Shown piece by piece: positions 11,753 to 44,413 of a stretch of 44,706 nucleotides of DNA. Source of the DNA: Candidatus Nitrosocosmicus sp. Lineage in GTDB: Archaea; Thermoproteota; Nitrososphaeria; Nitrososphaerales; Nitrososphaeraceae. Positions within the stretch are counted from its first letter, which is position 1, and every line of letters starts with the position of its first letter. Both the position numbers and the translations under genes were made by a program. The notes beneath the pieces were generated by a model, which worked only from the letters and a program-made list of their open reading frames with translations, did no database searches and was not told the origin of the DNA. The stretch is from the NCBI GenBank assembly GCA_025934495.1, contig JAICXY010000017.1, positions 1-44,706 on the forward strand. Reading direction: 5' to 3'.

Positions 11753-12208
11753 GGACTCTGTTAACTTAAGAAAAAAACAATATCTTCAGGAAGACCCTAT
11801 ATTCTATGAAATCCAGAAAAAGAACACCTTCACAAATTATTGGATATGGATTACATTTGTACATTTTAGGTATATCCCGTTGACATATCAAAAGAACTAA
11901 ATATGTCTATTGTAATAGAGCGTTTTCTGTCTAACGTTGTAGATAAGTATGGATTACATTCTGTTTCATCAGACGGTGATGGTACTGGGTACCCGCAAGC
12001 TCGCAAGTTTTTTTAAACAAAACATCACCTTCAATCTACTTACGAGAAAAGTATTATACAAAGAATAATACATTACATAAAAGATAGAACTGAAAACTTT
12101 GACTACTTTCCATGCAGAAAAAAGAATGTAAATTAAAACATAAAAGAATTGGCTTAATCTATATGTAGTCTATTTCAACAAATAATGGTGTATTAAGTGA
12201 ATAGAGCC
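11753..12208 (+). mobile_element. IS6-like element remnant
   Basis: The left end reads GGACTCTGTTAACTTAAG, one inserted base away from the GGCTCTGTTAACTTAAG terminal repeat of the element at 43471-44162. The right end, TTAAGTGAATAGAGCC, is a decayed copy of the opposite terminal repeat. Inside, the plus strand reads RTPSQIIGYGLHLYI, then VERFLSNVVDKYGLHSVSSD, then IKDRTENFDYFPCRKK, each matching the intact-length copy. About 240 bases of the transposase centre are missing, so the element is a deletion derivative. No target duplication can be seen. Confidence 0.75.
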
Positions 12209-13453: not shown

Positions 13454-13662
13454 AGAGATTGAATTTAAAAGATGTAATATTCTTTGAGAAATGGAATGAG
13501 GATAATAATATTAATTGGAAGAATTTTAAAAGTCTATATTAACAATAATGTATAAAACAAATAATCCATTATAGTTTCATTAAATGACATCTATTAAATA
13601 TCGAATTTATAATATGTTATATGACCTTCTTATCAAAATATTTTAAAAATAAAGTATGCTTT

Positions 13663-14846
13663 GTTAACAGCTCTGTAAACATAAAGGCAAATCCTCTTGT
13701 AAAATATTAGTGATCACTTTGGCATTATTTTTATTATAAATATTCTTCCACTTGCTAACTGTTGCTTTTCCTATTTCTTGCTAGTCTTTAAATGTAAAAT
13801 TGTTGATTGCCGTTTGCCTTTGTACCCATGGTAAATTACTTCAATTAAGTTGAGCTCTGGTGATCTTACGGTAGAAATACAAATTTTATTTGTGGACAAT
13901 ATCTTTGCCAACTTTGATTTGTGTGCTGATAGATTATCAACTATAAGAAAGATATTCTGGATGTTTTTATCATCATATCTTTTATCCACCCTTTAAGGAA
14001 ATCAACAAACTGGTTCCCTGTTTTATTTCTATAACAATGAACATGCATCTTATCATTTGTACTGTCATGGCTCCAAAAATGTTTAATAGTCCTCTTATCT
14101 TTTGAGCCTTCTCTATCTTTACTTGTGTTGATGACCAGGATGTGCCGCCATGGGTCTTTGCTGCTACATGCTCTTTCTCATCTGCATAAAGTAACGCAGA
14201 ATTCGAAGGTGTATTATACCTTAGCTGTTGTTCGATATACTTTTTTCAAAGTGTATTCTGGATTATTGCTTCTTTTATTTGATAAAAGGTTTTAGATTTC
14301 TTCCATTTTATTTATTTTTCAAAAGGATATCCATTATTTCTGCAGAAATGGCTTATTTTATCCACCAGTTTTAGATCATACATAAGAAAGCCTGATGCCA
14401 ATACGCGTAATGACCAAGTAGAAAAACACAAACCATAACATTTGGATTTGATGATGTTATATCAATAATCTTCTTTTCTATACTATCATCAAACTTGTAT
14501 TGTTTATGATCATATTTTTTTGATATGAGATCATCAATTCCTTTTTCATTGAATCTATGTATCCATTTTCTTATATTATTATCAATGATGACGATTGGTT
14601 ATCTTTCTTATCTGCGGTATTGTGTATCCTTCGTCTTTGAGCAGGATTACCTTGGCTCTATATCTGCATTTTACATCTTCAAGGGTCATGTGTAAAATAT
14701 TCTTTTCATCAGTGGTAAGTATTATGATGAGGAATGTACCCCTCATAGTATTACTAAAGAGGGTCAAGCTAAAGGTATTATGATATCTAAACAGTCACCA
14801 TTAATTTTACAGAAAAATATGCCATGCCTTTTATAGAACTGTTAAC
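13663..14846 (-). mobile_element. IS630-like insertion sequence, transposase degraded
   Basis: The ends are GTTAACAG (13663-13670) and CTGTTAAC (14839-14846), and the similarity continues inward for some 16 bases with two mismatches. The minus strand encodes first an N-terminal helix-turn-helix (IILTTDEKNILHMTLEDVKC, then KVILLKDEGYTIPQIRKITN, at 14582-14767) and last the catalytic end FLIVDNLSAHKSKLA and RSPELNLIEVIY (13771-13989). The latter is the IS630/Tc1 DDE signature with the glutamate of the SPELNLIE motif. Several frameshifts separate the pieces. The right end runs directly into a MITE (14835-15018), the two sharing the GTTAAC core. Confidence 0.75.
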
Positions 14847-15018
14847 TTAAGGTTTTTCTAGAATAGTTAGTCTATTCAAAATATCTATTACCACTCAATT
14901 TCAATAAAATCATGATATTTTGTGCACAATATAATCAATCTAATTTACAAAAATTTGAAGAAATTTATTTTATCATTGATAGCAGGTATGTGGAAAAATT
15001 CCTTAAGTTAACAGAGCC
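14835..15018 (+). mobile_element. MITE copy 1 with IS6-like terminal repeats
   Basis: A 184-bp non-coding element, about 90% identical by eye to the copy at 15358-15539 and in the same orientation. The right terminal repeat CTTAAGTTAACAGAGCC is perfect; the left one begins AGAACTGTTAACTTAAGG, the first bases having been replaced where it meets the end of the IS630-like element. The interior has no reading frame of note and includes the shared segments TTTTTCTAGAATAG and GATAGCAGGTATGTGG. Its terminal repeats match those of the IS6-like element at 43471-44162. Confidence 0.8.
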
Positions 15019-15123
15019 ATAAAGTATAGACAAAATATTAAATGCTAGATTTCAGTAATGTGGCTTTTATCAATTTTTTATTATATTTGATTTTTATAAA
15101 TTTATTTTATTAACTTAAAAAAA

Positions 15124-15198
15124 TGCCGGAGGCGGGACTTGAGCCCGCGACCTTTCGATTATGAGTCGAACGCTCTAACCAAGCTGAGCTACCCCGGC
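15124..15198 (-). tRNA. tRNA-Met (CAT), elongator type
   Basis: The minus strand folds as a complete cloverleaf: acceptor stem GCCGGGG paired with CTCCGGC (one G-U pair), D stem GCTC/GAGC, anticodon stem TTCGA/TCGAA around the loop CTCATAA with anticodon CAT, a short variable loop, and T stem GCGGG/CCCGC. The discriminator base is A and CCA is not encoded. The anticodon stem lacks the three G-C pairs of initiator tRNA, so it is an elongator Met; a CAT tRNA modified to read Ile (AUA) is the alternative, less likely by its acceptor stem. No intron is visible. Direct MITE copies stand on both sides. Confidence 0.93.
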
Positions 15199-15357
15199 AA
15201 GCTCAGCTCTGAATTAATTAGGCAATTGAACTAAAATACATACATTATATAATCTATTCATAAAGTCTGTGTTCACAAACTAAAATTGTTTTAGAATTAT
15301 AATGGATACTTTATTGTAATTATGTTTTTATTAAAATATATTTATCTTTATGTGAAG

Positions 15358-15539
15358 GGCTCTGTTAACTTAATGTTTTTCTAGAATAGTCAGTTTATTC
15401 AAAATATATTTCCACTCAATTTCAATAAATCATGATAATTTTGAGCACAATATAATCAATCTAATTTACAAAAATTTGAAGAAATTTATTTTATCATTGA
15501 TAGCAGGTATGTGGAAAAATTCCTTAAGTTAACAGAGCC
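15358..15539 (+). mobile_element. MITE copy 2 with IS6-like terminal repeats
   Basis: A 182-bp element bounded by GGCTCTGTTAACTTAA (15358-15373) and CCTTAAGTTAACAGAGCC (15522-15539), which are inverted repeats of each other. It contains no gene. It matches copy 1 over its whole length apart from a few substitutions and one- to three-base gaps. The flanking 8 bases (ATGTGAAG left, TTCGACAT right) are not the same, so no target duplication remains, probably because the right side abuts another decayed element. Confidence 0.85.
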
Positions 15540-15544
15540 TTCGA

Positions 15545-15918
15545 CATCATTAGTAAATTTATGTTGTTTATGACTATGCTTTGATATGATGCCATCAATT
15601 CCTTTTTCATCGAATTGATGATGTATCCATTTTCTTATGTTATGAGCATGATGATTATTTGTTATTTTCTTATTTCAGGGACTGTATATCCTTCATCTTT
15701 AAGTAGTATGATCTTGACTCTACCCTGATTCTTTATCTTCAAGCATCATCAGATGTAAAAGGTTCTTTTCAACGGTAGTTAGCATTCTGATGAGGTGTGT
15801 ATCCCTCCCTCATATTTATAAATTACAACAGTAAGCTAAAGATGTTATGATAGCAAATAAAACACAACTATTTTACAAGACGATATAATAGATCGTTTAC
15901 AATGCTGTTAACAGAGCC
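15545..15918 (-). mobile_element. IS630-like remnant, N-terminal end only
   Basis: This fragment resembles the 5' part of the IS630-like element at 13663-14846. The shared stretches are GATATGATGCCATCAATTCC against GATATGAGATCATCAATTCC, and TATCCATTTTCTTAT, and on the minus strand KIILLKDEGYTVPEI-like coding that is broken by frameshifts. Its right end reads GCTGTTAACAGAGCC (15904-15918), so the terminal repeat beginning GTTAACAGC is kept, followed by AGAGCC. The catalytic part is missing; the fragment starts directly after MITE copy 2. Confidence 0.65.
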
Positions 15919-43240: not shown

Positions 43241-43470
43241 TGTTTATCATGTTCAAAAGAATAAGACAAATTTTTTTAGAACTCCTTTTGATAGGGTCTG
43301 ATTATATTTTATCAAATTTATCTTTAGGAAAGATATCGTAGTTTGTATTGTTTTATTAGAAGAAATCATGCTTACATTTGGAACTTTATTCAAGGAACAA
43401 TAAGCAAAGAAAATATCAAACAAGACAAAAAGAATGTAAAATAATACTTGAAAGAGTAGATTGTTTCTAT

Positions 43471-44162
43471 GGCTCTGTTAACTTAAGAAAATATTTCTTT
43501 ATTGTGTTGATCGATGAATAAATATAGCCACTGTTTCACATGGTTTAATTTACATTTGTTCTTTTTACAAGGAAAGTAATTATCAAAGGTTTCGGTTCTA
43601 TCCTTTATGTACTGCTGTATTGTTCTTTCAATAATGCTTTTTTTAAAAGAAGAATGCAAATGATGATCTAGTTTCAAGAAACTACAGGCTTGCGGATACC
43701 ATGTGCCACCGTCTGTAAAAACCGGATGCAGTCCATATTCACTTACTTACAATTTTTGACAAAAATCGTTCTGCTACTACAAACATATTCCGTTCTTTTG
43801 ATATCTCAACTGAAAGAATTTCTCTATCTTTTGGTTCGATAATGGCAACCCAACAAAACCAGATTAATTCGGAGCCTGCTTTTACAGCATTTTCATCTTT
43901 TTGTATATAAGAATATTCAAGAATTTTCTTTTTTCTATGTGTTTTCTTTGGTTTATACTTTTGAATCCAATTCCATATGGAAACATGACTTATCTTTACT
44001 AAAAGTAAAAATGATAATGCTTTCGCGGTATTTCTAAAGGATAAACTTAAAAAATACAAGTATAATCCATAACCAATAATTTTTGAAGGTGTTCTATTTC
44101 TTGAGCTCATAAAATGTATGGTTGTCTTAAAGCTATAGGTTTTTCCTTAAGTTAACAGAGCC
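43471..44162 (-). mobile_element. IS6-like insertion sequence with intact ends and 8-bp target duplication
   Basis: The ends GGCTCTGTTAACTTAAG (43471-43487) and CTTAAGTTAACAGAGCC (44146-44162) are perfect 17-bp inverted repeats. GTTTCTAT stands directly outside both (43463-43470 and 44163-44170), the 8-bp duplication typical of IS6. The 692-bp element encodes one transposase on the minus strand, in two frames: 44110-43739 (SSRNRTPSKIIGYGLYLYFL, helix-turn-helix ISHVSIWNWIQKY, first Asp in IQKDENAVKAG) and then TDGGTWYPQACSF (second Asp) and IKDRTETFDNYFPCKK (after the Glu). A duplicated 4-mer (ACTTACTT at 43741-43748) breaks the frame. Confidence 0.9.
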
Positions 44163-44213
44163 GTTTCTATATGCGCAATAGATCAATACAATAAAAAAGT
44201 AATTACTAATATC

Positions 44214-44312
44214 GGCTCTTTTAACTTAAGGTTTTTCTAGAATAATTAGTTTATTCAAAATATCTATTTTCACCCAATTTCAACAAAATCAAGATATTTC
44301 GAGCACATTATA
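44214..44312 (+). mobile_element. MITE copy 3, right half missing
   Basis: It starts GGCTCTTTTAACTTAAGG and follows the other MITE copies through TTTTTCTAGAATAATTAG and ATTCAAAATATCTATT to GAGCACATTATA, then similarity stops. The right terminal repeat is missing. It lies 50 bases from the IS6-like element and about 100 bases upstream of a sensor gene, in the same orientation as the other two copies. Confidence 0.78.
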
Positions 44313-44413
44313 AACGAAATAATATAAATTATTTAAAACAGAATAAAATTAGATCGCAATTAGAATAAAAAATAAATCAATATATAAAAATTAATTTATT
44401 TTATACTCTAATA

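Follow-up and report, generated by a model that had tools for sequence, protein, structure and literature searches.

The window, meaning the whole stretch of 44,706 nt analyzed here, is contig C88 of a Candidatus Nitrosocosmicus genome of 3.56 Mb in 200 contigs. It carries copies of a short MITE, decayed IS630-like elements, and an IS6-like element with the same ends as the MITE. Within the window, 13 matches to the terminal motif GGCTCTGTTAACTTAA were counted (≤3 mismatches), against 0.45 expected from shuffling. The features are as follows, in window positions.

13649..13656, plus strand: left 8-bp target duplication of MITE copy 1, ATAAAGTA, an exact match to 15019-15026
13657..13667, plus strand: outermost 11 bp of copy 1's left terminal repeat, TGCTTTGTTAA, separated from the remainder by the IS630-like insert
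13668..14841, minus strand: decayed 1,174-bp IS630-like element at the TTAA in the left terminal repeat of copy 1
14842..15018, plus strand: remaining body of MITE copy 1 with its intact right terminal repeat (95% identity to copy 2 in alignment)
15019..15026, plus strand: right 8-bp target duplication of MITE copy 1, ATAAAGTA
15358..15539, plus strand: MITE copy 2, complete, target duplication gone
15562..15907, minus strand: second IS630-like remnant, truncated (repeat family D14, from sequence)
43463..43470, plus strand: left 8-bp target duplication of the IS6-like element, GTTTCTAT, exact
43471..44162, minus strand: IS6-like element whose 16-bp ends are those of the MITE (placed by its perfect ends, duplication, and ORFs)
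44163..44170, plus strand: right 8-bp target duplication of the IS6-like element, GTTTCTAT, exact
44214..44325, plus strand: truncated MITE copy, left ~111 bp (83% identity over query positions 1-111)

The MITE family described in an initial annotation of this DNA was confirmed as a whole and is well supported, with the positions as first given apart from a few refinements. Copy 1 is present where it had been placed (14835 to 15018), and its start moves to 14842, since 14835 lies in the final bases of an IS630-like insert. It had been taken as complete and is in fact damaged, with the 1,174-bp element occupying the TTAA of its left repeat. The resulting layout is ATAAAGTA-TGCTTTGTTAA-[13668-14841]-TTAACTTAAGG...CAGAGCC-ATAAAGTA, and the exact duplication is restored only by stepping over the insert. 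Copy 2 has both ends exactly at 15358 and 15539. It lacks a duplication and its right side abuts the second IS630-like remnant, an arrangement that hints at a deletion alongside it or at recombination. On its other side, this remnant adjoins TTAACAGAGCC (15908-15918), the outer half of a further IS6-type terminal repeat. The half copy, first given as 44214 to 44312, is likewise present and runs slightly further, to ~44325. All of the MITE copies are noncoding, as proposed, with no ORF of 60 amino acids within them. A tRNA-Met (CAT) gene lies at 15123-15199, between the two directly repeated copies, and recombination between copies 1 and 2 would delete it.

The IS6-like element shares its ends with the MITE, as had been noted, and these are perfect over 16 bp. 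It is a pseudogene, its transposase gene being broken into pieces at 43483-43677 and 43739-44110. A further stretch of 455 bp at 11754-12208 has IS6-type ends and pieces of a transposase and is probably an internally deleted IS6-like copy. The sequence immediately to the left of the IS6-like element (43427-43470) resembles 12119-12162 within this relic (75% identity), and the element thus seems to have been placed in an older IS6-like relic.

The MITE family and its relatives

The genome holds the further copies that the initial annotation had anticipated, 22 in number and mostly on separate contigs: 19 with 87 to 100% identity, 1 truncated (83%), and 2 older (73 to 74%). Two additional matches cover only the MITE ends. 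The element is short (182 to 185 bp, with a consensus of 185 bp), is noncoding, has perfect 16-bp ends in copy 2, and is present in multiple dispersed copies. Close copies deviate from the consensus at 2 to 9% of positions, and the family is therefore not entirely recent. Its inverted repeat of 16 to 20 bp, GGCTCTGTTAACTTAAGG, is identical to that of the IS6-like elements in the same genome, and only these terminal 16 to 20 bases match the IS6-like element. A second MITE family in this genome is 180 bp long.

The flanking 8-bp duplications that had been predicted are far above the control. Of the 19 copies that could be assessed, 10 are flanked by 8-bp repeats with no more than one mismatch, 6 of them exact, while the control pairing the left flank of one copy with the right flank of another gave 9 of 342, none exact. 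When lengths from 4 to 12 were scanned strictly, 4 copies matched at length 8, 2 at length 6, and none at other lengths. The duplication length is that of the IS6-like element, 8 bp. The absence of duplications in the remaining 9 of the 19 copies, window copy 2 among these, would be expected from decay, truncation, or recombination. The MITE copies of this genome occupy intergenic DNA that is poorly conserved. Two copies lie inside IS relics whose paralogues (71 to 75% identity) lack them. Together with a relative's MITE that sits in a reading frame (see below), these paralogues indirectly support empty sites of MITE insertions.

A DNA search of 69 other genomes of the family returned only short, chance-level matches to this MITE. 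An exact scan of GTDB contigs with its left 24 bases found none, in a scan that possibly left out the genome itself. The species is represented by one genome, and no two strains differing in the presence of an insertion were found. Relatives carry MITEs of their own. A genome of the same genus (G013) has a different 183-bp MITE with ends GGCTCTGTTCACTTAA at 20 places of match, many of them 99 to 100% identical and breaking contigs (loci including L194, L196, L199, L202, and L203), a pattern that indicates a recent burst. The duplications are exact in 5 of its 7 complete copies, and one copy interrupts an otherwise open patatin-like frame of 481 codons. Two genomes from different genera (G011 and G059) have in common a 185-bp MITE at 79% identity, and G003 has MITEs of 101 and 277 bp with exact duplications. 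Except for the G011/G059 pair, these families share only ~16 to 37 terminal bases, and their interiors are mutually unrelated. The same ends have been reused with unrelated interiors, species after species. A scan of 400 genomes of the class for paired ends delimiting elements of ~170 to 200 bp gave 4 positives, all in the Nitrososphaeraceae, a count that is too low because exact ends were demanded.

IS6-like elements and a candidate helper

An intact candidate helper is present on another contig of the same genome, 690 bp long with an exact duplication, CAATTGAG, and a 209-amino-acid open frame. An open copy of a relative matches PF13610 (DDE_Tnp_IS240) over the cutoff (E = 2.3e-9), as do copies in the genome itself, where the PF13610 matches comprise two groups, elements with long ORFs and the short elements with these ends. 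The broken window copy by itself gave no PF13610 match. The transposases found between these ends are IS6/IS240-like, and the elements show GG tips, a CTGTT motif, GGCTCTGTTAACTTAA ends, and 8-bp duplications, all features of the IS6 family as ISfinder defines it. The autonomous partner measures 640 to 760 bp. Several contigs stop ~140 bp inside IS6-like elements, as would be expected if near-identical, recent copies had collapsed in the assembly.

Further IS6-like copies besides the one in the window also have exact duplications. This genome has 17 elements that retain both ends; their duplications are exact in 6 and, with up to one mismatch allowed, present in 8. The closed genome G007 gave 16 of 29 exact and 18 of 29 with no more than one mismatch (control, 5 of 812). 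Fifty-three two-ended elements were fetched from named genomes by the transposase protein alone, and their duplications were exact in 23 and within one mismatch in 30 (control, 3 of 2,756). Since elements fetched by protein share both the ends and the 8-bp duplications, both belong to the IS6-like transposase. Nearly all relatives of this transposase belong to Nitrososphaeraceae, and many carry the label Candidatus Nitrosocosmicus, as fits an ammonia-oxidizing archaeal host in or close to this genus.

IS630-like insertions in IS6-type repeats

The IS630-like element in copy 1 (13668-14841) has the ends CAGCTCTGTAAACAT..ATAGAACTG with TTAA on both sides. A partial DDE_3 match at 13771-13989 falls below the Pfam cutoff (E = 1.3e-4), and all of the IS630-like copies seen are decayed. 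The ends, CAGTT...AACTG, lie at TTAA inside MITE and IS6-like repeats, which makes the IS630-like elements later insertions. Random decay, considered as the cause of irregular MITE ends, was rejected in part, as at least four copies (L002, L005, L008, and L009) carry an IS630-like insertion. Insertion at the TTAA of the repeat likewise accounts for irregular ends in several IS6-like copies.

A genome-wide search for the IS630-like end found 108 sites, and the counts given here come from the first 100 of the 108. Exact ends were followed by TTAA in 21 of 21 cases among the matches listed, which would fit a duplication of either TA or TTAA. IS6-type repeat half-sites hold 38 of the 72 ends at TTAA among the matches listed, a count that includes both ends of one insertion and in which some insertions may descend from a single event. 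The genome has 231 IS6-type repeats (≤2 mismatches) and some 44,000 TTAA sites, extrapolated from 12.5 per kb in the window, so that only ~0.6% would be expected in IS6-type repeats. The apparent preference of IS630-like elements for these repeats is the more surprising part of the result, and CTGTTAAC is a candidate for the TTAA site that their transposase putatively prefers.

Insertions at IS6-type repeats include short IS630-like versions of 167 to 201 bp. IS630-like loci were recorded at 13668-14841 and 15562-15907 in the window and at L005, L031-L033, L048, L053, L162, and L186 elsewhere in the genome, and other genomes of the family have this end in fewer copies. At L186 and L165, the IS630-like sequence is framed by two IS6-type outer half-repeats, GGCTCTGTTAA...TTAACAGAGCC or TTAACGAGCC, and IS6 interior sequence is lacking, a structure perhaps left by recombination between two IS630-like insertions.

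Proposed mobilization of the MITE and known systems

The proposal that the MITE is a nonautonomous derivative moved by the IS6-like transposase is supported by its 22 copies, by the 8-bp duplications, and by the IS6/IS240-like transposases found between the same ends. Further copies do exist, and the sole other transposase linked to them, the IS630-like one, represents a later insertion into the MITE repeat. We consider it very probable that this is a gene-less MITE with IS6-like (PF13610) ends, most likely moved by the transposase of an intact IS6-like copy.

An internal-deletion derivative of an IS6-like element, with an interior diverged beyond recognition, would also share ends and duplication length, and the sizes of the other MITEs of the family (101 to 277 bp) are compatible with such an origin. 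We regard it as quite improbable. As first described, the MITE interior does not resemble the transposase gene: it has no significant match inside any IS6-like copy compared, even at word size 7, whereas IS6-like relics of 70 to 76% identity are still readily found. Moreover, the interiors of the MITE families are mutually unrelated (G011/G059 excepted), and no intermediates linking interior to transposase sequence were seen. Slightly more improbable still is mobilization by an unrelated transposase that recognizes the same ends, for example, that of the linked IS630-like element. IS630-like sequences do adjoin several MITE copies, both of the larger window copies included, but their own ends lie within the MITE and IS6 repeats, the MITE duplications are 8 bp like those of the IS6-like element, and a search by the IS6-like transposase protein retrieves elements with these same ends. 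Least probable of all is a functional chromosomal repeat (an RNA gene or a regulatory or structural sequence) rather than a mobile element: the strand folds back strongly through its ends (z = −5.4) and two direct copies flank the tRNA-Met gene, but the hairpin is mainly the terminal repeats pairing, Rfam gave no family on the MITE copies (only the tRNA and a weak match to its reverse strand), 8-bp duplications are present, copies are nested in other IS relics, positions are not conserved across species, the element is absent from 69 relatives, and an analogous element has undergone a recent burst in G013.

Under mobilization by the IS6-like helper, the transposase from an intact copy would bind the shared repeat in trans and cut at the GG tips of the MITE, and an 8-bp staggered cut at the target would leave 8-bp direct repeats around it. 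Such mobilization in trans is what the common ends and duplications point to. As its interior shows no relationship to the transposase gene, the MITE may have arisen when unrelated DNA became enclosed by two ends, or else too long ago for its origin to be visible. Many copies would then decay after insertion, in part through IS630-like elements that enter at the TTAA of the shared repeat and so divide it.

IS6/IS26 elements classically form cointegrates, which are resolved by homologous recombination (PMC7986276), and solo MITEs with duplications therefore need a resolution step or another route. The solo, duplication-flanked copies, which are seen in the closed genome too, fit either efficient resolution or a simple-insertion route. 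Most MITE events were probably simple insertions.

ISfinder already lists two MITEs in the IS6 family, MITEBth2 and MITEHarch3, with lengths given as 227 and 336 bp (PMC7986276, PMC6807381). Both resemble the present MITE in being noncoding, with IS6-type ends and no transposase. They differ in being longer and in having other hosts, a comparison made by description and not by sequence. Their names suggest that these hosts are Bacillus thuringiensis and a haloarchaeon. The IS6-type MITE is thus already known as a type and is newly seen here, and several MITE families are added to a group with only two IS6-type examples in ISfinder. No report of MITEs in ammonia-oxidizing soil archaea was found in the literature searched.

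The archaeal elements assigned to the IS6 family form clades a to d, and their transposases have been placed outside IS6/IS26 in the strict sense, with removal from the family being argued (PMC6807381). Like the IS6-like partner described here, they have a short DDE transposase and 8-bp duplications, and many have GG-type ends in which position 7 is a G (PMC6807381). ISSte1 of the Sulfolobus plasmid pTC1, for instance, is 762 bp long with an 8-bp duplication, ATCACAAA (PMC4390865). MITEs of Haloquadratum are similar in that the interior is unrelated to the transposon, with only the ends and the duplication length in common, and some have no intact helper copy, but they belong to other transposon families and another archaeal class (PMC3119063). 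The IS630-like insertions have a parallel there as well, SMR-A attacking PATEs, where small repeats also prefer another mobile class as a target. The SMRs have no known transposase (PMC3119063), whereas in the present case the attacking element is IS630-like and its target is the TTAA in the IS6-type terminal repeat.

An earlier study found no experimental data on archaeal IS6-like transposition (PMC6807381), and the many simple insertions with 8-bp duplications bear on its mode. We see an even balance for and against the broader reading that IS630-like elements and their own short derivatives prefer the TTAA in IS6-like and MITE repeats and that the archaeal IS6-like transposase makes mainly simple insertions. 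If this is true, the MITE repeats would be dispersed landing pads for the IS630-like transposon. In the single-contig genome G007, most IS6-like elements are simple insertions with duplications. In one region of it (G007:C1, ~2475200-2520700), the IS6-like copies L283, L284, and L285 share flanking octamers in a ring (GATCAGAA, ATGTTGCT, and CCTTGGAG/CCTTAGAG), a pattern that either recombination between the copies or intramolecular replicative transposition would leave.
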